Assembly (NCBI GenBank): GCA_031082285.1
Contig: JAVHLK010000001.1
Span: forward strand, 1 to 64,000
DNA length: 64,000 nt
Origin: Desulfomonilaceae bacterium
GTDB lineage: Bacteria; Desulfobacterota; Desulfomonilia; Desulfomonilales; Desulfomonilaceae
Reading direction: 5' to 3'
The translations under genes and the position numbers were made by a program. Positions 1,860-9,960 of this stretch are shown here, one piece after another. Every line of letters starts with the position of its first letter. Positions within the stretch are counted from its first letter, which is position 1. Under the pieces are notes generated by a model, which searched no databases, was not told the origin of the DNA, and saw only the letters and a program-made list of their open reading frames with translations.

Positions 1860-2125
1860 GCTGCTGCAGTTGCGGGGAACAGCCCACTTGCGCTCAGCTG
1901 CCAGATGTGCTGATAGACCCTCTGGCTCGCCGCCTGATTTTCAACGTCTGAAAAGGGCGGCGTCGGCAGCTCTCGAAAGAGATGGTCCAGAATAGAAACC
2001 TCGACCTCTGCTTGCGTCTGCTCCTTTTCGGTCCACCGCTCAAGAGGGGTAATGAGCTTTCGCAAGGAATCCCATAGATTGTTGCTTGCCGGCTTGACCC
2101 GTTCACGATCCGCCTTGGAAAGATT
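1856..2125 (-). pseudogene. Remnant of the 3' end of a type I restriction enzyme R subunit (hsdR)
   Basis: A 90-codon open stretch ends in TGA at 1856. Its residues resemble, from memory, the extreme C-terminus of HsdR proteins: WTEKEQTQAEVEV, ILDHLFRELPTPPFSD and RVYQHIWQLSASG. Nothing HsdR-like lies upstream, where the frame runs into the 3' end of the ImmA-type gene. The 5' part, with the nuclease and helicase, is therefore missing. A TTG at 2065 could start a 69-residue product. The likely reading is a deletion that joined the tail of a restriction gene to the higBA locus. A comparison with full-length HsdR would settle it. Confidence 0.45.
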
Positions 2126-3194
2126 CTCTTTTCAGATCGTTGAGCCAGCTGAAAGGGATGTGCTTTTCGCGCTGCAATCTACCCACGACGATTCCTGGGG
2201 CCACCCCCACTTTCTCCGAAAACAGGTTTATCGAAGTCCTGCTGAAGCTCTTTCTCGCCACAAAGCCCTTGTACTCTTTTGGTGGAATAAGAATTCGTTC
2301 GGCAAAAGCGTCGGCGGCGATTTCTTCTTCCGAACCGGCTGCATCAGGTTCGTTGATATAGACCCCTTTCTTGGAGTGCGTGAGAATGTGCCCCCCCTCG
2401 TGAAAGAAACTGAACCAGAAGTGGTCATTGGTCTTGTGTCTCAGACTCAACTGGATCAGAGCCTTTTCAGGAGTCAGCCATCGGCTCGCGCCGCTTACGT
2501 GAGTCTTGGGAAATTCCGGGACAAAAACAAGAGCGACTCCCGCTTCTCCGCAAAGGGCCTTTATCTTGGGCTCAAATTCTTCCGGATTTAAGTTTGTGAA
2601 GGATCTGATCGTCAAAAGGGCCTTCATAAAGAGGTCTCTGTCATATGGACTTGTTTGGCTCCCTTGAGCCAGTAATTCGCCGATTCTCAACCAAGTGGCC
2701 AGAGACTCTAATTCGCTCTTGAATACAGGGGAATGGCGAAAAGCCGCGCCCACCAAGGCATAGCGTTCCTCCCACACTTCAATTGAAGCCACTCCAAAAA
2801 ATCTCAACACCAACTCTACGGCATGGATTCTATCCTTGGGCTTCTCGATCAAGCCTCGCCTAATCAATTCCTTGACCGGAAATTTATCGGCCCATGCGAC
2901 TTGTTTCTCCAGTTCCTGACCTGCCTTCTTTCGGGCCTGGAAGGCACGGTAATTGGCTTCAAGATTGTTCCAGACATCACCTGCAATACCCAGAACACGC
3001 TCAAAGCGGATTGCCGTCTCCGGAGTCACCGAAGCCTTTCCGCTAATGATCTGGCTCACATGTTTGGTGGACAGACCGCAACTTTCCGCGAAATCCTTCT
3101 TCTTTATCCCGAGGGCGTCCAAGGTCTCTTCCAAGATCTCGCCGGGAGAGGTTGCATAATCAGGCTTGTATTGGTTTTTCGGCTGGCTAATCAT
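2103..3194 (-). CDS. HigA-type XRE antitoxin fused to ImmA/IrrE metallopeptidase domain
   Basis: The 363-residue product has a HigA-like helix-turn-helix at about residues 15-75 (SPGEIL, then SCGLSTKHVSQIISGKA). A linker leads to a C-terminal ImmA/IrrE-type zinc peptidase domain with HEGGH at 265-269 and a downstream EEEIAADAFAERILIP helix. The ATG at 3194 overlaps the end of higB by 8 bp and places the HTH at the usual distance from the N-terminus. An upstream in-frame extension to 3293 has no family-like sequence. It probably represses the higBA promoter and neutralises HigB. The peptidase part may control antitoxin or partner stability, which is inference. Confidence 0.85.
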   Translation of the reverse strand: MISQPKNQYKPDYATSPGEILEETLDALGIKKKDFAESCGLSTKHVSQIISGKASVTPETAIRFERVLGIAGDVWNNLEANYRAFQARKKAGQELEKQVAWADKFPVKELIRRGLIEKPKDRIHAVELVLRFFGVASIEVWEERYALVGAAFRHSPVFKSELESLATWLRIGELLAQGSQTSPYDRDLFMKALLTIRSFTNLNPEEFEPKIKALCGEAGVALVFVPEFPKTHVSGASRWLTPEKALIQLSLRHKTNDHFWFSFFHEGGHILTHSKKGVYINEPDAAGSEEEIAADAFAERILIPPKEYKGFVARKSFSRTSINLFSEKVGVAPGIVVGRLQREKHIPFSWLNDLKRESFQGGS

Positions 3195-3528
3195 TGTGAT
3201 AATCCTCGACCGACATGATGGTGATCGCCGTGACGGCCTGCAGATCGATTCCCCCGTCCTCTCTTCTGGGTACGGGATCATGGTTAGGCTCAAACACCAG
3301 TCGGCAGTTGCCGGTCAAATCTACCGCGAACTGGCCTTTTCGATTTCCCTTCAGCTCATGCCTGCGTGTTGGAGGACTCACAGGAACCTGAGCCAAGTTG
3401 ACTGCAGCACGCAGGAAATCCTGGCGCATCCTGATCTTTCTTGCCCGATCCAAGCCATACTCCTTGACAAGCTTCCCTTCTGAATCAAAGATCTTGCTCA
3501 TCTTCGTCGTCTTGTAGGCGATGTCCAT
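3187..3528 (-). CDS. higB: HigB-like type II toxin (RelE/HigB superfamily)
   Basis: The 113-residue protein has the HigB killer-protein layout. The N-terminal part carries KIRMRQDFLRAA. The middle has PPTRRHELKGNRKGQFAVDLTG, and the NCRLVFEP strand is typical of RelE-fold ribosome-dependent mRNA interferases. It is somewhat longer than plasmid HigB (about 92 aa). It lies directly upstream of, and overlaps, the HigA-ImmA gene, in the toxin-first order typical of hig loci. The family cleaves mRNA on the ribosome. Activity here is inferred. Confidence 0.82.
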   Translation of the reverse strand: MDIAYKTTKMSKIFDSEGKLVKEYGLDRARKIRMRQDFLRAAVNLAQVPVSPPTRRHELKGNRKGQFAVDLTGNCRLVFEPNHDPVPRREDGGIDLQAVTAITIMSVEDYHND

Positions 3529-4058: not shown

Positions 4059-4685
4059 TCACGCGATACCTTCTCCCAATTGACCTCCCTCAACAATCCT
4101 CTCCGTCACAACCCAAACCAAGGAAAATATCATATCCAGCTCGAACCAGCGGGTGATGGAGCTATCGAAAAGCACGGACACGGACGCGGGAAATTCGTCG
4201 TCCGCGGCCCACAAGACGTATGTGACGGGGATTTCCGGGAACGGAAAGAAGCGCATGGCCGCGTCCCCATGAGATACGGGAACCGCATTCAGGTCCCGGC
4301 CGCGTTCCTCGAACGCATCGGGATTTCTTCCGTAAAGCTTGGCTATCGGTCGCACGTACAGCGCGTGGGGGCCCTGAAAGAAGGTAACGCCTCCGGGGCA
4401 GTCCTTCTCGCTGATGTCCTTACCGTCGATCGGACTTCCGATGGGGGCGAGCAGGTACTGGATGAGCAGGATCTGGAACATCTCGGTCAATTCCCGAGAC
4501 GGGTCCGGGGAGATCTCGTTGATCCGTTCCGCTGCAGGATCTATCTCATACACCGCGTTCAGAAAGGTCAGTTCATATCCGTTGCCGGTCTTCGAGAGTG
4601 TGACGCCTTCCCGCGCAATCACCCGGTCAACTGCGCAATTCCTGAGATCATCCCAGTGGAAAGGGTGTGGTGCAGCGCAACCCAT
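4059..4685 (-). CDS. DUF3786 domain-containing protein
   Basis: The 208-residue product shows the DUF3786 C-terminal pattern: FPEIPVTYVLWAADDEFPAS, the following SVLFDSSITRW and a final amphipathic helix. A central YLLAPIGSPIDGKDIS segment and the GPHALYVRPIAKLYG region also fit the family. These proteins occur in strict anaerobes, often near corrinoid or Fe-S enzymes, but their role is unknown. The ATG at 4685 follows an AGAGGT ribosome-binding site. It is monocistronic here, between an intergenic repeat and the divergent metal cluster. Confidence 0.8.
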   Translation of the reverse strand: MGCAAPHPFHWDDLRNCAVDRVIAREGVTLSKTGNGYELTFLNAVYEIDPAAERINEISPDPSRELTEMFQILLIQYLLAPIGSPIDGKDISEKDCPGGVTFFQGPHALYVRPIAKLYGRNPDAFEERGRDLNAVPVSHGDAAMRFFPFPEIPVTYVLWAADDEFPASVSVLFDSSITRWFELDMIFSLVWVVTERIVEGGQLGEGIA

Positions 4686-5030
4686 GTGTACCTCTTATGA
4701 TGCCGATTTCAGTTACCATCCGAGAATACGGCAATCAACCGACAAGAATCAAGTTATTCTCGGCAGGTCCGCGCCTCATGCTTCCCGGTATTGCGAAGAA
4801 ATGGCGTCCGGTCTTTTTTTTTCGCGAGATTCCGTCTCGAAGCATGTATTCACAAGTATATGAGCCCGACCGGGATCATCGACGCCGCGCGTCGGCTGTT
4901 TGAGACTCACGGCCGGAAAGGCTCCCCGACGCGGCTCCCGGATGGGACTTTGAAGGGAAGCGATCAAAACTTGATCAAACAACTTGACATTGGTGAAAAA
5001 ATAGTTAGACTTGATCACTAGGAAACTGGA
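4686..5030. other. Divergent intergenic region upstream of the Cys-rich cluster
   Basis: This stretch holds the upstream region of the DUF3786 gene on one side and the promoter and operator-like repeats of the 5031-9829 cluster on the other. No protein-like frame or RNA gene was recognised. Confidence 0.4.
4984..5011 (+). promoter_or_regulatory. Sigma70-type promoter of the Cys-rich metal/redox cluster
   Basis: A perfect TTGACA (4984-4989) is followed after 16 bp by TAGACT (5006-5011, four of six consensus positions). The start of transcription would fall near 5018, giving a leader of about a dozen bases before ATG 5031. Two copies of ACTTGATCA (4969-4977 and 5009-5017) flank or overlap the promoter and may be operators. 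Confidence 0.5.
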
Positions 5031-5528
5031 ATGCGTAAACGGGTTGCTATGTTTCATCGTTCCCTCATATTCCTCGTATGTATCTCCCTGGTGGGGGTAA
5101 CCCTTCTGCCGGCATCCTTACTTCCTTGCTGCTGCAAGTTTGAAGGAGTCGGAGTACGCGGCGAGGGAGCATCATCTTGGTGTCCGCTGCATAAGGCGAG
5201 CCGGCGCACGGCGCCGCACACGCCCCCGGGGGCGTCCTGCTGTTCCGGCCGGTCGCTTGCCGAGGAACGGGGTCAATCAGTGGGTTGTCGTCAAAAAGTC
5301 AACCTGCAGAAACCCTGCGGACAATGCCGATGTCCGGAACTGATGCAGATGGTGACGTTGACGGGATACACGGCGGGCCAGGTCAACCTGAGGACGCCCA
5401 TCGTTCCCGAGGCGACGGTCACCACTTCCGTACTTCCCGCGGTCTTTCATGGGGCCGCACATGTCGATCCCGTCATTCATGAACCCAAGAATACGGTTCT
5501 CCTCAAGACCTGTACACTTCTGATTTGA
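5031..5528 (+). CDS. Cysteine-rich exported protein, unknown function
   Basis: The 165-residue product starts with a signal-like hydrophobic stretch (about residues 9-28) followed at once by LPCCCKFEG. It contains 12 cysteines in all, many in pairs: CCC, SCCSG and CGQCRCPE, with histidines scattered between. I recognise no family. The cysteine pattern suggests metal or thiol chemistry outside the cytoplasm, but this is inference. It is the first gene after a good promoter and precedes the HMA-SurA_N fusion by about 150 bp. An ATG at 5049 is an alternative start. The last gene of the cluster (9152) is also a CC-rich exported protein. Confidence 0.65.
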   Translation: MRKRVAMFHRSLIFLVCISLVGVTLLPASLLPCCCKFEGVGVRGEGASSWCPLHKASRRTAPHTPPGASCCSGRSLAEERGQSVGCRQKVNLQKPCGQCRCPELMQMVTLTGYTAGQVNLRTPIVPEATVTTSVLPAVFHGAAHVDPVIHEPKNTVLLKTCTLLI

Positions 5529-5682
5529 TCCGCCCTCTTGCGCCCGGCGCAGATCGTTCTGTTCTCAAATCACCAACGACATCGATAAGATAACGTGTGG
5601 GCTGCGTTGGTCGAATTCGCAGACCCCTATTTACATGGAATCGTGGTGTCTTGACGGACTCTCGTGCAAGAGGAGTTAAGGT

Positions 5683-6627
5683 ATGTCTGAAAAGCGACGG
5701 ATGAAAGAAATAACCATGGATACCTTGGAACAGTCCGAACACAAAGTGTCCCTGGGGAGATTGAAAAAGGGAATCGGAGCCCTGTTCATGCTGCTCGTCC
5801 TTGCCGGCGGCGTTTACGGGGCGTACAGGCTGGTCGCGGGCGATGTGGTGGCGTCCCGTTTCGTGGTGGACAAGATGAATTGCCCTGCGTGCGTGGTGAC
5901 GGTTCAAGAAGTGACCGGCAAACTTCCGGGTGTGATCCGGGCCGATGTCAGCCTGGCCGGCAAGGACGTTGTGGTCCAATTCCGAGAGAGGCAGACCAGC
6001 GCCGACGAAATTCAGTCGGTCATTGCCAATGCGGGGTACCCCGCCAGGTTGGAAGGACTCTTCAGCCCTGACGGCGGCGGTATTGATGAGACGGTGGTTG
6101 CCGTAGTCAACGGTAAGCCGATTTTTCAGAAAGAGCTCAAGGTGCCGTTCAACACGGCCGACAAAGAGGTCAAAGCGCAGGAACCTGCCGCCGCTCTCTT
6201 TACGGTCGTGGGCAAGGCAATCGTGCTTCAGGCCGCGGACAAGGAGACCGTAGTGGTCCAGCCCTTTGAGGTGGACGAGGAGGTTGAAAGGATCTTCAAG
6301 AATCGGGGAGGCACGAGAGAAGAGTTCCGTGCGTGGATAACCGCCAACTATGGTTCCCCGGAAAAGTTCAATCAAATCGTGGGACAGCGGCTGGGGATCC
6401 GGCGATTGCTTGAAGACCACATCCTGGACGGGGTCACGGATGCCGAGACGAAGAAGCACAAGGCCATGGAGTGGATCGGAACGCTCTTCCGGGACTCGAA
6501 GGTCCTCATTGTGGACGAGCAGTTGAAGGAGACATTGCAGGCTTCCGTGGGACAGAAGGAATGGAGCACATTCTGGCCGCGTATGATCGGTTCGGAGACC
6601 GAACTGAAGAAGCTGTTGACCCAATAG
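5683..6627 (+). CDS. Membrane-anchored HMA metal-binding domain fused to a SurA_N-like chaperone domain
   Basis: The 314-residue protein has a short cytoplasmic N-terminus, one membrane span (about 31-52) and then a heavy-metal-associated domain (about 58-122). That domain has a CPAC metal-binding pair at C67 and C70 and the typical GVIRADVSLAGKDVVVQF strand. Residues about 130-310 (VAVVNGKPIFQKEL onward) resemble the SurA/PpiD N-terminal peptide-binding domain, without a parvulin PPIase domain. The start has an AGGAG site 8 bp upstream. It lies between the Cys-rich protein and the DUF2318 gene. It plausibly hands a soft metal to, or helps fold, a metal-loaded periplasmic partner. Both domain calls come from motif reading. 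Confidence 0.75.
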   Translation: MSEKRRMKEITMDTLEQSEHKVSLGRLKKGIGALFMLLVLAGGVYGAYRLVAGDVVASRFVVDKMNCPACVVTVQEVTGKLPGVIRADVSLAGKDVVVQFRERQTSADEIQSVIANAGYPARLEGLFSPDGGGIDETVVAVVNGKPIFQKELKVPFNTADKEVKAQEPAAALFTVVGKAIVLQAADKETVVVQPFEVDEEVERIFKNRGGTREEFRAWITANYGSPEKFNQIVGQRLGIRRLLEDHILDGVTDAETKKHKAMEWIGTLFRDSKVLIVDEQLKETLQASVGQKEWSTFWPRMIGSETELKKLLTQ

Positions 6628-6721
6628 CCTGCGCGGCGACTCGTGGTCTTGCGAAAGAAAGTCCTCCGAGTCCGAAAACTCGGTATCCAAGAAACTACAA
6701 AGCTAAAGAAGGATGCGTGAA

Positions 6722-7210
6722 ATGAACCGGAGATATAGAGCAAGAAGATATCCATTTATCGTCGTTTTCGCGGTGACGGCCGCGTGCGCGGGCGTATTCT
6801 GGACCGGCCCTGCCGAATCCGCCTGGAACTTCGTCGTACCTGCGGTTGAAGTGAAGCCGCAAAACGGGGTGTTTGCCTTCCCTCAAAACGCCTTTGCCGA
6901 CGGCAAGGCCAAGCACTTCGAGTACAAGCACTCGCCAAGTCAATGGGTACGGTTCTTCGTGGTGAAGAGTAGCGACGGCACCATCAGAGCAGCTTTTGAC
7001 GCGTGTGACGTATGTTGGCGTCATAAGAAGGGGTACGCCCAGCAGGGCAACTTCATGGTGTGCATAAATTGCGGCCTGAAGTTCCGAACGGACAAAGTGA
7101 ACGAGGTGAAAGGCGGGTGCAACCCGTCGCCGTTGAAGAGGACCATCCAAGGCGACAACGTGATCGTCACGCAACAGGACGTAATGTCGGGTCAGGGATT
7201 GTTCCAATAG
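6722..7210 (+). CDS. DUF2318 (FtrD-like) membrane-associated protein
   Basis: The 162-residue product has an N-terminal hydrophobic signal or anchor (about 10-30). The DUF2318 hallmark follows: AFDACDVCWRHKKGY, MVCINCGLKF and GGCNP, giving two CxxC pairs and a fifth cysteine. The family includes FtrD of bacterial ferrous iron transport and a component of the Campylobacter p19 iron-uptake cluster. ATG 6722 is preferred over ATG 6713 because AAGAAGG lies about 8 bp before it. It is followed after 14 bp by the permease gene. In this context it is probably an extracytoplasmic electron-transfer or metal-binding partner of the ABC pair. Confidence 0.85.
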   Translation: MNRRYRARRYPFIVVFAVTAACAGVFWTGPAESAWNFVVPAVEVKPQNGVFAFPQNAFADGKAKHFEYKHSPSQWVRFFVVKSSDGTIRAAFDACDVCWRHKKGYAQQGNFMVCINCGLKFRTDKVNEVKGGCNPSPLKRTIQGDNVIVTQQDVMSGQGLFQ

Positions 7211-7224
7211 AGAGGGGAATACAC

Positions 7225-8382
7225 ATGAAACTTCGCGATATAGCCGTAAACAATCTGAGACGCAGGAAAGCGAAAGTGTTCTTCCTGGTGGCGGGTCTCC
7301 TGGTCGGTGTGGCCTCCGTGGTCGCATTGATGACGACCACCCGTATTTTGGAGGAGGATATCGCTCACAAGATGGACGAATTCGGAGCCAATATCATCAT
7401 CACCCCTCGATCCGAGGGCCTGTCCCTGACGTACGGCGGGTTGAGCCTGGGCGGGTTGTCTTTCGACCTGAAAGAAATGTCCGAGGATGACGCGGCCAAG
7501 ATCACGACCATCAAGAACTCGGAAAACATCCGGTACGTCAGCCCTAAGCTCTTCGGCGTGTTTGAGAATCGAGGACACAAGGCACTGGCGGTCGGCGTTG
7601 ATTTCGACGCGGAACTGGAGATGAAGAAGTGGTGGAAAATTACCGGACAGCCTCCCAAGGCGGAGGATGACGTCCTCGTGGGAAAGGAGGCCGCGGAGAA
7701 GTTTCGAGTCGCCCCGGGGGACACTTTGGACATCAAAGGCAAGACGTTCAAGGTGGCCGGAGTTCTCCATCCCACGGGCTCCCAGGATGACGGCCTCGTC
7801 TTCATTTCTCTGCCCGTGAGTCAGCAGCTTTTCGACAAACCGGGCAAAGTGGGCATGATCGAAGTGGCGGCGCTTTGCCATAACTGCCCCATCGCGGAGA
7901 TCGTAACCCAGATCTCCGAGGCTCTTCCCGCGGCAAAAGTCACCGCGGTGCAGCAGGTGGTCGAGGGGCGTATGGACACGCTGCACAACTTCCGGAAGTT
8001 CTCACTGGGCATCTCGGGCCTGATTCTCATGGTCGGTTCCATGGTGGTGTTCGTGACCATGATGGGGAGCGTAACCGAACGCACCAGAGAAATAGGGATC
8101 TTCAGCGCGATCGGTTTTCGGAGGTCCCACATCATGAGGATAATCCTTCTGGAAGCCTTTGTTGTCTCGCTCATTGCAGGAGTCGTGGGGTACGCGTCCG
8201 GTATCGGGGCGACCAGAGTTCTGTTGTCGTTTCTCACGGACAAGGTGCCGCACTTCTCTCTGGATCCGATCGTACCGGTGGGCGCGGTCTTCCTGTCCAT
8301 CGTGATCGGATTGACTGCATCTCTGTACCCGGCCATGGCCGCATCGAGAATGGATCCCAGCGAGGCGTTGAGGACCTTATAA
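7225..8382 (+). CDS. MacB/FtsX-type ABC transporter permease
   Basis: The 385-residue protein has one N-terminal span (about 17-38), a large periplasmic MacB_PCD-like domain and three C-terminal spans, which is the FtsX-fold topology. The C-terminal motif MAASRMDPSEALRTL is typical. The periplasmic domain carries an unusual CHNC pair (C218, C221) next to a proline, fitting the Cys theme of the cluster. ATG 7225 has AGAGGGG upstream; a longer open frame from 7060 overlaps the DUF2318 gene and is not credible. The ATPase gene begins 11 bp downstream. The substrate is unknown; Campylobacter p19-type loci use similar permeases with DUF2318 proteins. Confidence 0.88.
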   Translation: MKLRDIAVNNLRRRKAKVFFLVAGLLVGVASVVALMTTTRILEEDIAHKMDEFGANIIITPRSEGLSLTYGGLSLGGLSFDLKEMSEDDAAKITTIKNSENIRYVSPKLFGVFENRGHKALAVGVDFDAELEMKKWWKITGQPPKAEDDVLVGKEAAEKFRVAPGDTLDIKGKTFKVAGVLHPTGSQDDGLVFISLPVSQQLFDKPGKVGMIEVAALCHNCPIAEIVTQISEALPAAKVTAVQQVVEGRMDTLHNFRKFSLGISGLILMVGSMVVFVTMMGSVTERTREIGIFSAIGFRRSHIMRIILLEAFVVSLIAGVVGYASGIGATRVLLSFLTDKVPHFSLDPIVPVGAVFLSIVIGLTASLYPAMAASRMDPSEALRTL

Positions 8383-8393
8383 GGAGGCGTTTG

Positions 8394-9101
8394 ATGAGTT
8401 ATATACGAGCGATAAATGTTGCAAAGTATTTTGGAACGGGCGAAGGAAAGGTCGCGGCCGTTCGGAGCATAGATGTTTCCATCGAGCAAGGCGAGTTCCT
8501 TTGCATCATGGGAGAATCGGGAGCCGGCAAGAGCACTCTGCTTTCCATGTTGGGCGGACTGCTCAGCCCCAGCCGCGGGGAAGTCCTCATCGGCGACATC
8601 AACATCTATGAACTCAAACCGGACAAGCGAGCGGACTTCAGGAGAGAGTTCATGGGATTCATTTTCCAATCCTTTCAATTGGTACCGTATCTCAACGTAC
8701 TGGAAAACGTTCAGTTGCCCCTGGCCGTGACGCATCATACGGAGGCGGAAAAGAAGGAACTGGCCATGTCCGCGTTGGAGAGAGTGGGTCTCAAAGACAA
8801 GGCTCACCGGCTCCCCAATCAGATTTCCGGCGGAGAGCAGGAGCGGGTGGCCATTGCCAGGGCCGTCGTCAACGAGCCGCCCGTGCTGTATGCGGACGAG
8901 CCCACGGGAAACCTGGATTCTAAGAACTCCGCGGAAGTAATGAAGCTTCTTAAGAGGCTCAATGCCGAGGGGCAGACGATCGTGATGGTTACCCACAGCA
9001 GACACAACGCCGAGTATGCCGACCGGATAATCGAGGTGGCCGACGGCACCATCGAGGAGTCCGGACCGCTGTTCCAAGCCGCAGCAGGCGCATCGGTCTG
9101 A
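8394..9101 (+). CDS. LolD/MacB-type ABC transporter ATP-binding protein
   Basis: The 235-residue ATPase shows Walker A GESGAGKST (40-48), the Q-loop FQSFQLVPYLNVLENV, signature SGGEQ (145-149), Walker B VLYADEP (164-170) followed by TGNLDS, and a switch histidine in MVTHS. This is the MacB/LolD (3.A.1.122/125) subgroup, which matches the FtsX-fold permease upstream. AAGGAGG lies 6 bp before ATG 8394. It powers the 7225 permease, probably to move or mechanically couple something in the periplasm rather than to import it. The signature SGGEQER, with E where R is common, is within normal variation. Confidence 0.9.
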   Translation: MSYIRAINVAKYFGTGEGKVAAVRSIDVSIEQGEFLCIMGESGAGKSTLLSMLGGLLSPSRGEVLIGDINIYELKPDKRADFRREFMGFIFQSFQLVPYLNVLENVQLPLAVTHHTEAEKKELAMSALERVGLKDKAHRLPNQISGGEQERVAIARAVVNEPPVLYADEPTGNLDSKNSAEVMKLLKRLNAEGQTIVMVTHSRHNAEYADRIIEVADGTIEESGPLFQAAAGASV

Positions 9102-9151
9102 TGGGAGAGAGGCTTTCGGTCAATATTGAGAAAGACCAAAGGAGAAAACTC

Positions 9152-9829
9152 ATGAGAAGATTAGAGATAATTCTGTTGGCGGCACTGTGTGCGTCATTGC
9201 TGATGGTGTCGTCGAGCCTGGCCCTCCCAAGTTGTTGTGGTGCGAACGACCGCGGCGCGGTGAATATCGTGGGTGTGCCGGGGAGCAGCCCGGTCGCCGG
9301 GTTCGGAGCACCGTCCGCGCCCGAACCTTCACCGCGGTATCGCACGGAGTCAAGACGAGCGGCGTCGCCTCCGCCGTTTCGAGCTTTGGCGGCCTCTTCG
9401 GTGCCAAGCTGTTGCGCAGTGGACGGAGCGAGGTACCCGCAGGGTGCAAGCAGGTATGTCCCCAACTACGGACAAGTCGGACCAAGAGCCGCTTCCGGCC
9501 CGGCAGGTACCTATGGAGGTTGCTGCGGAGCTCCCGTGTATTCCAATCGACCGGCCGTGGAGAACCTGCCGAGTTGCTGCAGCACCGGCCGCGGTTCCTA
9601 TGCCCGTTATCAGGGTGCGCCCGCTCCCGCGTCCAACATCTCTCCCTGCCGGCGGGCAGGGTGCGGAACCGGCGCGGCATATGAGGCGAGTCCTTCCCGA
9701 CAACCAGCTCGGGCCGTCCCCGCGTCGGCAACCCAGAGGATCGGAAATGCCTACTACCGGAACAGCGTAGCCGACTCGGGACCTTTTGGTAAACCGGGTT
9801 ATTTTCCGACAGTCAGGAATATGTGGTAA
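9152..9829 (+). CDS. Exported protein with repeated CC motifs
   Basis: The 225-residue product begins with a clear signal peptide (residues 1-25, ending in SLALP). It then has five cysteine pairs at intervals: LPSCCG, VPSCCAV, GGCCGAP, LPSCCST and PCRRAGC. The spacers are rich in Pro, Ala, Gly, Ser and Tyr and look disordered. ATG 9152 has AAAGGAG upstream. It is the last gene of the cluster, 50 bp after the ATPase. No family was recognised. The vicinal cysteines could bind soft metals or form disulfide cross-links in the envelope; which of these is not shown by sequence. Confidence 0.65.
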   Translation: MRRLEIILLAALCASLLMVSSSLALPSCCGANDRGAVNIVGVPGSSPVAGFGAPSAPEPSPRYRTESRRAASPPPFRALAASSVPSCCAVDGARYPQGASRYVPNYGQVGPRAASGPAGTYGGCCGAPVYSNRPAVENLPSCCSTGRGSYARYQGAPAPASNISPCRRAGCGTGAAYEASPSRQPARAVPASATQRIGNAYYRNSVADSGPFGKPGYFPTVRNMW

Positions 9830-9836
9830 AGGGCGA

Positions 9837-9918
9837 GGGGTCAGGTCTTGTTTCTTGAATCAAGATGAAAGACCTGACCCCCTTTATTCGCGATGAAAGA
9901 CCTGACCCCCTTTATTCG
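9837..9918. repeat. Tandem 28-bp repeat with inverted copy
   Basis: A 27-bp unit containing GACCTGACCCCCTTTATTCG occurs at 9864-9890 and again, identical, at 9892-9918, giving a 28-bp period. Its core AAGACCTGACCCC (9869-9881 and 9897-9909) is matched in inverted orientation by GGGGTCAGGTCTT at 9837-9849, so a hairpin can form just after the stop codon at 9829. The position suits a transcript end. This looks like a REP-type element. Confidence 0.6.
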
Positions 9919-9960
9919 GCGTCCCTTCAGGACGCGTCCACCATGTTCGGCCATCGATTT

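Follow-up and report, generated by a model that had tools for sequence, protein, structure and literature searches.

What task is served by six adjacent genes, most of which place cysteine motifs outside the inner membrane, is the question raised by a locus near the start of a Desulfomonilaceae contig (JAVHLK010000001.1, assembly GCA_031082285.1), the first 64,000 nucleotides of which form the window analyzed here. The source genome (G000) is a 5.6 Mb draft, and its family includes Desulfomonile tiedjei. An original prediction had described the genes as an undescribed exported cysteine-pair cluster with a matching ATPase, serving either a soft metal such as copper or mercury or the assembly of a disulfide- or metal-linked envelope protein. 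All six plus-strand open reading frames (ORFs), termed P1–P6, were confirmed at the positions given there, together with the motifs and Pfam domains ascribed to them. From sequence and gene context we infer the metal, the regulation and the mechanism, and conclude that P1–P6 probably form one operon for periplasmic Cu(I)/Ag(I) handling. The core of the block is a real, widespread and under-described variant of the Fet-type DUF2318/FtsX ATP-binding cassette (ABC) module.

The block opens with P1 (5031..5528, with a start at 5031 or 5049), an exported Cys-rich protein containing 12 cysteines and the motifs CCC, CC and CxxCxC. It is followed by P2 (5683..6627), a membrane-anchored fusion of an HMA (CPAC) metallochaperone domain with a SurA N-terminal chaperone-like domain, and by P3 (6722..7210), a DUF2318/FtrD-like periplasmic domain (PF10080, E 1.3e-32) with the cysteine spacing CxxC-x15-CxxC-x15-C. 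P4 (7225..8382) is an FtsX/MacB-type (type VII) ABC permease with a periplasmic CxxC (C218, C221), and P5 (8394..9101) is the cognate ATPase of LolD/FtsE/MacB type (PF00005, E 5.4e-33), which adjoins P4 in the loci examined. P6 (9152..9829), also exported, is rich in Pro, Ala and Gly and carries four CC pairs plus a single CxxxxC. The successive intergenic gaps from P1 to P6 measure 154, 94, 14, 11 and 50 bp, and 5′ of the block lies a sigma70-like promoter, TTGACA-N16-TAGACT (equivalent to TTGAC-N17-TAGACT; 4984..5011, plus strand). The same element, TTGAC-N17-TA[GA]ACT, recurs 58–87 bp 5′ of P1 in all 15 family loci with enough upstream sequence, and no other copy was found on that strand in 235 kb. 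The shared promoter and short gaps thus support, at the level of sequence, transcription of P1–P6 as a single unit. No copper-responsive regulator of the shared promoter was identified in the family loci, a metal-sensitive (CsoR-type) regulator lying nearby only on a plasmid described below, and no RNA elements were found.

The genome-neighborhood check proposed with the original prediction showed that the genes do co-occur. DUF2318 was detected in 17 of 18 family genomes, the exception (G002) being 81% complete, and the order P2–P5 is kept in those 17, although two of the blocks are either divided between contigs or truncated where a contig stops. Identities to family homologues are 41–58% for P2, 57–73% for P3, 65–78% for P4 and 76–85% for P5. 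A P1 homologue occupies the same position in every one of the 15 family loci, the window included, whose contig extends far enough upstream. Far from being confined to this lineage, the DUF2318-permease-ATPase core is widespread across Desulfobacterota, where it lies near cusBA.

The neighboring genes point to the metal. A gene for a CusB-type adaptor (HMBD, HlyD_D23, DUF3347) comes next after the block, on its strand, in 13 of 17 family loci, joined by one for a CusA-type resistance-nodulation-division (RND) pump wherever the contig runs on; NosL comes after cusB-cusA in both family loci checked that extend so far. A permease profile-guided search of GTDB genomes retrieved 80 loci, mostly from Desulfomonile relatives and Geobacterales. 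Among 48 Geobacterales-type loci with at least 9 kb downstream, CusA/CusB was encoded within 10 kb downstream in 36 and upstream in 3 more; the RND background in eight of these genomes (72 matches in 37.6 Mb) corresponds to a chance linkage of about 2–4%, the value for 10 kb downstream being about 2%. A simple motif scan placed an HMA protein 5′ of DUF2318 in 39 of 60 cases. On the Pelobacter propionicus plasmid pPRO1, the order is metal-sensitive regulator, metal P-type ATPase, HMBD protein, HMA protein, DUF2318, FtsX permease, ATPase, TolC-CusB-CusA. All 50 intact pumps from the linked loci and the window's own genome have Met at the positions aligned to Escherichia coli CusA M573/M623/M672, which form the Cu(I)/Ag(I) site according to CusA crystal work; two RND pumps of the own genome possess the three-Met site, and no RND pump adjoins the block in the window. 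Because the block stands beside copper/silver pump genes in most relatives, it probably mediates ATP-driven handling of toxic copper outside the inner membrane. The assignment to Cu/Ag draws on the CusBA linkage with its Met site, NosL, the absence of FTR1, the copper/mercury-type HMA domain and the pPRO1 gene order. Independent support comes from gut Firmicutes, in which DUF2318 and HMA-DsbD_2-DUF2318 proteins were assigned bioinformatically to the CsoR copper regulon (PMC4938975).

Other copper loci were encountered along the way. The own genome harbors a second copper cluster (L182 2139-12482, on contig C292) encoding a two-HMBD protein, probably a metal P-type ATPase, together with CusA, CusB, a small CCC-rich exported protein and a NosL-like protein. 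At L285 (5522-15000), a DUF2318 gene lies beside TolC-CusB-CusA with no P4-kind permease detected between them, an arrangement in which DUF2318 may have a copper role that does not need its ABC pair. In Geobacter sulfurreducens, GSU1338-1341 has been named a metal efflux pump (PMC3495685), and GSU1340, an annotated ABC permease and possible P4 orthologue, is among the transcripts lowered in anode biofilms (PMC2680965); the main text of a cobalt RNA-seq paper on this organism does not mention GSU1338-1341 (PMC7726332).

Several observations weigh against a copper assignment. In the window genome the cusBA copies reside on separate contigs (C210 and C292), none beside the block, and the shared block promoter is not found in front of them. 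CusBA is not nearby in 9 of the 48 Geobacterales-type loci, nor in 13 of 20 loci from a phylum sample of 197 Desulfobacterota genomes with 56 DUF2318 genes, several of these loci being contig-limited. Linkage to pumps also falls short of proving metal specificity, and the AlphaFold2 (AF2) models described below are of monomers, not complexes. Finally, the only studied DUF2318/ABC system, Fet of Campylobacter jejuni, supports iron uptake (PMC10783030).

For P2, matches to HMA (PF00403, E 7.6e-9) and SurA_N_3 (PF13624, E 7.3e-7) were obtained, and the CPAC motif is invariant in the P2 alignment. The AF2 model (pLDDT 83.1) comprises a helix, an HMA domain and a SurA N-domain; the parvulin peptidyl-prolyl isomerase (PPIase) domain(s) of the SurA chaperone are not present. 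Foldseek matched the HMA half to MerP/CopZ-type HMA domains (template-modeling score, TMt, up to 0.95; MerP 1osd 0.94), in keeping with its resemblance to copper ATPase, CopZ and MerP domains, and the SurA half to SurA 8pzv (TMt 0.65). The HMA-SurA_N fusion also occurs 5′ of DUF2318 in two other families (f60, f81), and at L227 (7176-8108) a protein with a zinc ribbon, a transmembrane segment and SurA_N, devoid of HMA, is encoded immediately 5′ of DUF2318-permease-ATPase. Its presence beside DUF2318 in both fusions and the zinc-ribbon protein marks the SurA-like domain as a recurrent partner.

For P3, the two CxxC motifs and the fifth Cys are invariant in 50 sequences. The AF2 model built with 50 sequences (pLDDT 83.6) retrieved Rieske proteins in 50 of 50 among the Foldseek matches listed (best E 3.3e-4), with TM scores normalized by target of 0.55–0.61 against Rieske ferredoxins. 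The predicted fold is that of Rieske proteins, whereas the CxH...CxxH ligands of the Rieske [2Fe-2S] cluster are replaced by invariant CxxC...CxxC; P3 is predicted to be a Rieske-like domain with four cysteine ligands, and its metal could be Fe-S, Cu or Zn. In P4, which combines MacB_PCD (PF12704) and FtsX (PF02687), the CxxC reads CHNC at residues 218–221. This motif is present in all family members aligned, in 66 of 66 Geobacterales loci counted (one search pattern itself contained the first Cys) and in 20 of 20 phylum-sample loci found by profile, the weakest of which (L236) reads CIAC. Blocks examined contain a single permease gene. At L061 (7353-8507, genome G009), the permease frame carries one in-frame stop, reflecting either a degenerate gene or a sequencing error.

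P1 and P6 yielded no match in Pfam or NCBIfam, and membership of either in a known family was rejected on that basis; P1 also returned no PDB match. The four CC pairs of P6 compare with a mean of 0.50 in composition-preserving shuffles (p about 0.0008), and the three CC of P1 represent a mild excess (p about 0.04). Five residues of P1 (C27, C29, C64, C65 and C93) are invariant across 14 aligned sequences, while the remainder has drifted to 20–35% identity, and P1-like CC proteins also stand 5′ of DUF2318 in two other families (L222, L223). P6, for its part, had no clear sequence match; sequence search ruled it out as a conserved gene, and it is retained solely as a positional analogue. An exported Pro/Ala/Gly-rich protein with 3–5 CC pairs occupies the P6 position in L062, L063, L064, L065, L067, L069 and L136, and CC-rich proteins at this position span seven genera, with positional analogues listed in g2, g4, g6, g7, g9 and g11. 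P6 is absent in g5, g8 and g10, where cusB comes directly after the block. CC proteins, as P1 homologues and P6 positional analogues, therefore do accompany DUF2318/ABC genes in the same block of other genera, contrary to the refuting outcome named with the original prediction. Conservation as a unit holds for P1–P5 but not for P6, whose sequence is not conserved and which several genera lack.

A route by which such an operon might handle Cu(I) can be outlined from these parts. The thiols of P1 and P6 would buffer Cu(I), and the anchored HMA domain of P2 would pick it up; the four-Cys Rieske-like domain of P3 and the CxxC of P4 could then keep the site reduced or pass the metal on, by redox chemistry or ligand exchange. 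By analogy with MacB, LolCDE and FtsEX, ATP cycles of P5 would drive a P4 homodimer that works mechanically on periplasmic partners, with no ion pumping through the membrane, and the cycle would move metal in the direction of CusBA, to be exported. As to the SurA-like half of P2, it might bind polypeptides that are damaged by copper or lack their metal, or serve as a docking site for P3/P4. Tentatively, then, the block may constitute an ATP-driven periplasmic copper relay, in which a type VII ABC homodimer bearing a redox CxxC acts mechanically together with a Rieske-like all-Cys domain and the anchored metallochaperone-chaperone fusion, so that thiol proteins give up their Cu(I) and CusBA receives it. 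We know of no energy-coupled metal hand-off step in the described copper efflux systems.

The main rival to such a relay is a machine that repairs or matures envelope proteins under copper stress, wherein DUF2318, the permease CxxC and the SurA half would act on exported proteins with thiols, reducing, refolding or metallating them, with metal being the cause of damage or a cofactor and not the substrate. Although we consider it rather unlikely, several features are in accord with it: SurA_N-type domains recur beside the core even without HMA (L227), the P4 CxxC is invariant, and P3 is predicted to be Rieske-like and hence redox-capable. Furthermore, C. jejuni FetE is a thiol oxidoreductase and FetABCD has been proposed to relay reducing power (PMC10783030), and linked operons encode NosL, which serves as a Cu(I) chaperone when N2O reductase is assembled (PMC6530538). 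However, the family blocks contain no thioredoxin/Dsb partner, one FetE-like match was seen in 20 phylum loci, and no client cuproenzyme gene was found in the blocks, while the HMA and CusBA/CopA neighbors suit metal removal at least equally. As for the metal-linked envelope structure suggested by the original prediction, the analysis found no evidence for one.

Known relatives of P3–P5 bring iron into consideration, and a published survey has DUF2318 genes mapping almost always to a Fet-type cluster (PMC6083913). This generalization does not hold in Desulfobacterota: in the phylum sample, 40 of 56 DUF2318 genes lie within 2 kb of a P4-kind permease and 3 of 56 near FTR1, and none of 45 permease matches is near FTR1. 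Fet (fetMP-fetABCDEF) of C. jejuni and E. coli plasmids, with the order FTR1-P19-DUF2318-permease-permease-ATPase-TlpA on the latter, does resemble the block in uniting a DUF2318 protein, an FtsX-type permease and an ATPase in one operon, and its DUF2318 shares the paired CxxC (CxxC-CxxC-C) with P3. In kind, P3–P5 have their homologues in FetA (DUF2318 part), FetB/C and FetD, and growth without iron is poor in fetA-D mutants (PMC10783030). An iron uptake accessory cooperating with an unlinked iron permease is nonetheless highly improbable. FTR1 (FetM, PF03239) is absent in 18 of 18 family genomes, controls having been detected in E. coli and three others, which agrees with the earlier view that this is not a p19/FTR1 system; P19 (FetP) is missing from the block's six proteins and from 20 phylum loci, though present in Fet loci L282 and L283, no genome-wide search for it having been made. 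The block also lacks thioredoxins and has one CxxC permease instead of the FetB-FetC pair, and CxxC is absent from the Fet-type permeases checked (five in Desulfobacterota and both from E. coli). Genome G112 holds both systems at separate loci, a Fet-like one without CxxC (L281) and DUF2318-permease(CKDC)-ATPase-TolC-CusB-CusA (L288), the CxxC version being the one beside CusBA. On the strength of the FTR1 absence, the CxxC split between permease kinds and the separate G112 loci, the Fet/iron interpretation was rejected. The block further differs from Fet in its HMA partner and Cys-rich exported proteins, and the blocks of relatives in their CusBA/NosL neighbors. A further alternative is that the block serves mercury or some other soft metal, not Cu/Ag, by way of a MerP-like HMA, since the HMA half of P2 scores nearly alike against the MerP model (5e-11) and copper-binding HMA models (2.5e-11). 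We regard this as very doubtful, given that no mer genes were seen in linked blocks and that the CusA Met triad, HMBD, NosL, metal-sensitive regulator and metal P-type ATPase are copper/silver-type neighbors; of the soft metals originally named, copper has gained from the RND three-Met site and NosL in linked operons, whereas mercury is not favored.

Viewed as a Cu(I)/Ag(I) operon, the block can be set against other described systems. It shares with CusCFBA the periplasmic Cu(I)/Ag(I) setting, the linked pumps retaining the three-Met site, but supplies an additional ATP-driven module and Cys-rich proteins, and its chaperone is an HMA protein and not CusF (for which no search was made). NosDFY-NosL likewise combines a chaperone for Cu(I) with an ABC ATPase/permease that acts in the periplasm, and linked operons encode a NosL homologue; P4, however, is a MacB/FtsX family permease and not NosY-type, and NosD and N2O reductase were not noticed in the blocks. 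MacB, LolCDE and FtsEX (type VII) have the MacB_PCD and FtsX domains of P4 and the LolD/FtsE-type ATPase in common with the block, which differs in having neither MacA nor LolA, in the periplasmic CxxC of P4 and in its metal-protein partners. Compared with MacAB-TolC, the ATPase is a separate gene and not fused as in MacB, and the adaptor of relatives is CusB-type, not MacA. The CsoR-regulated Firmicutes proteins resemble the block in that an inferred copper regulon brings DUF2318 and HMA together, but they are membrane fusions, and an FtsX/ATPase pair is not described there (PMC4938975). The term undescribed therefore applies to the operon and the CxxC permease, but not to every part, the DUF2318/HMA copper link having already been drawn in these gut bacteria.

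DUF2318/FtsX modules have been studied experimentally in iron uptake only, and the common Desulfobacterota arrangement has a CxxC permease, no FTR1 nearby and, often, copper pumps alongside. If the copper assignment were confirmed, Gram-negative copper resistance would include, besides its P-type ATPases and RND pumps, a periplasmic step driven by ATP. What DUF2318 does biochemically, unsettled by the C. jejuni work, would then become testable in culturable Geobacter.

Additional features were observed around the block and at related loci. Directly 3′ of P6 (window 9850-9920) are two close copies of 'gatgaaagacctgaccccctttattcg', and divergent from the block lies a DUF3786 (PF12654) gene (4059-4685, minus strand) whose position is kept in most family genomes. 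Sensor-type genes occur 3′ of several blocks, including a dCache-HAMP-cyclase at L064 10897-12699 and similar ORFs in L065, L077 and L136. A Vibrio campbellii plasmid (L186 3673-10747) encodes an ArsR regulator, FtsX permease, ATPase, TlpA, small multidrug resistance (SMR) transporters and a P-type ATPase; its permease is without CxxC and no DUF2318 match was found, making this a further FtsX/ATPase pair among metal genes. Upstream in the window (2103-3528, minus strand), an apparent HigBA-type pair was noted by eye, consisting of a 113-residue RelE/HigB-like ORF and a 396-residue ORF with helix-turn-helix and ImmA/IrrE-like (HEGGH) parts.

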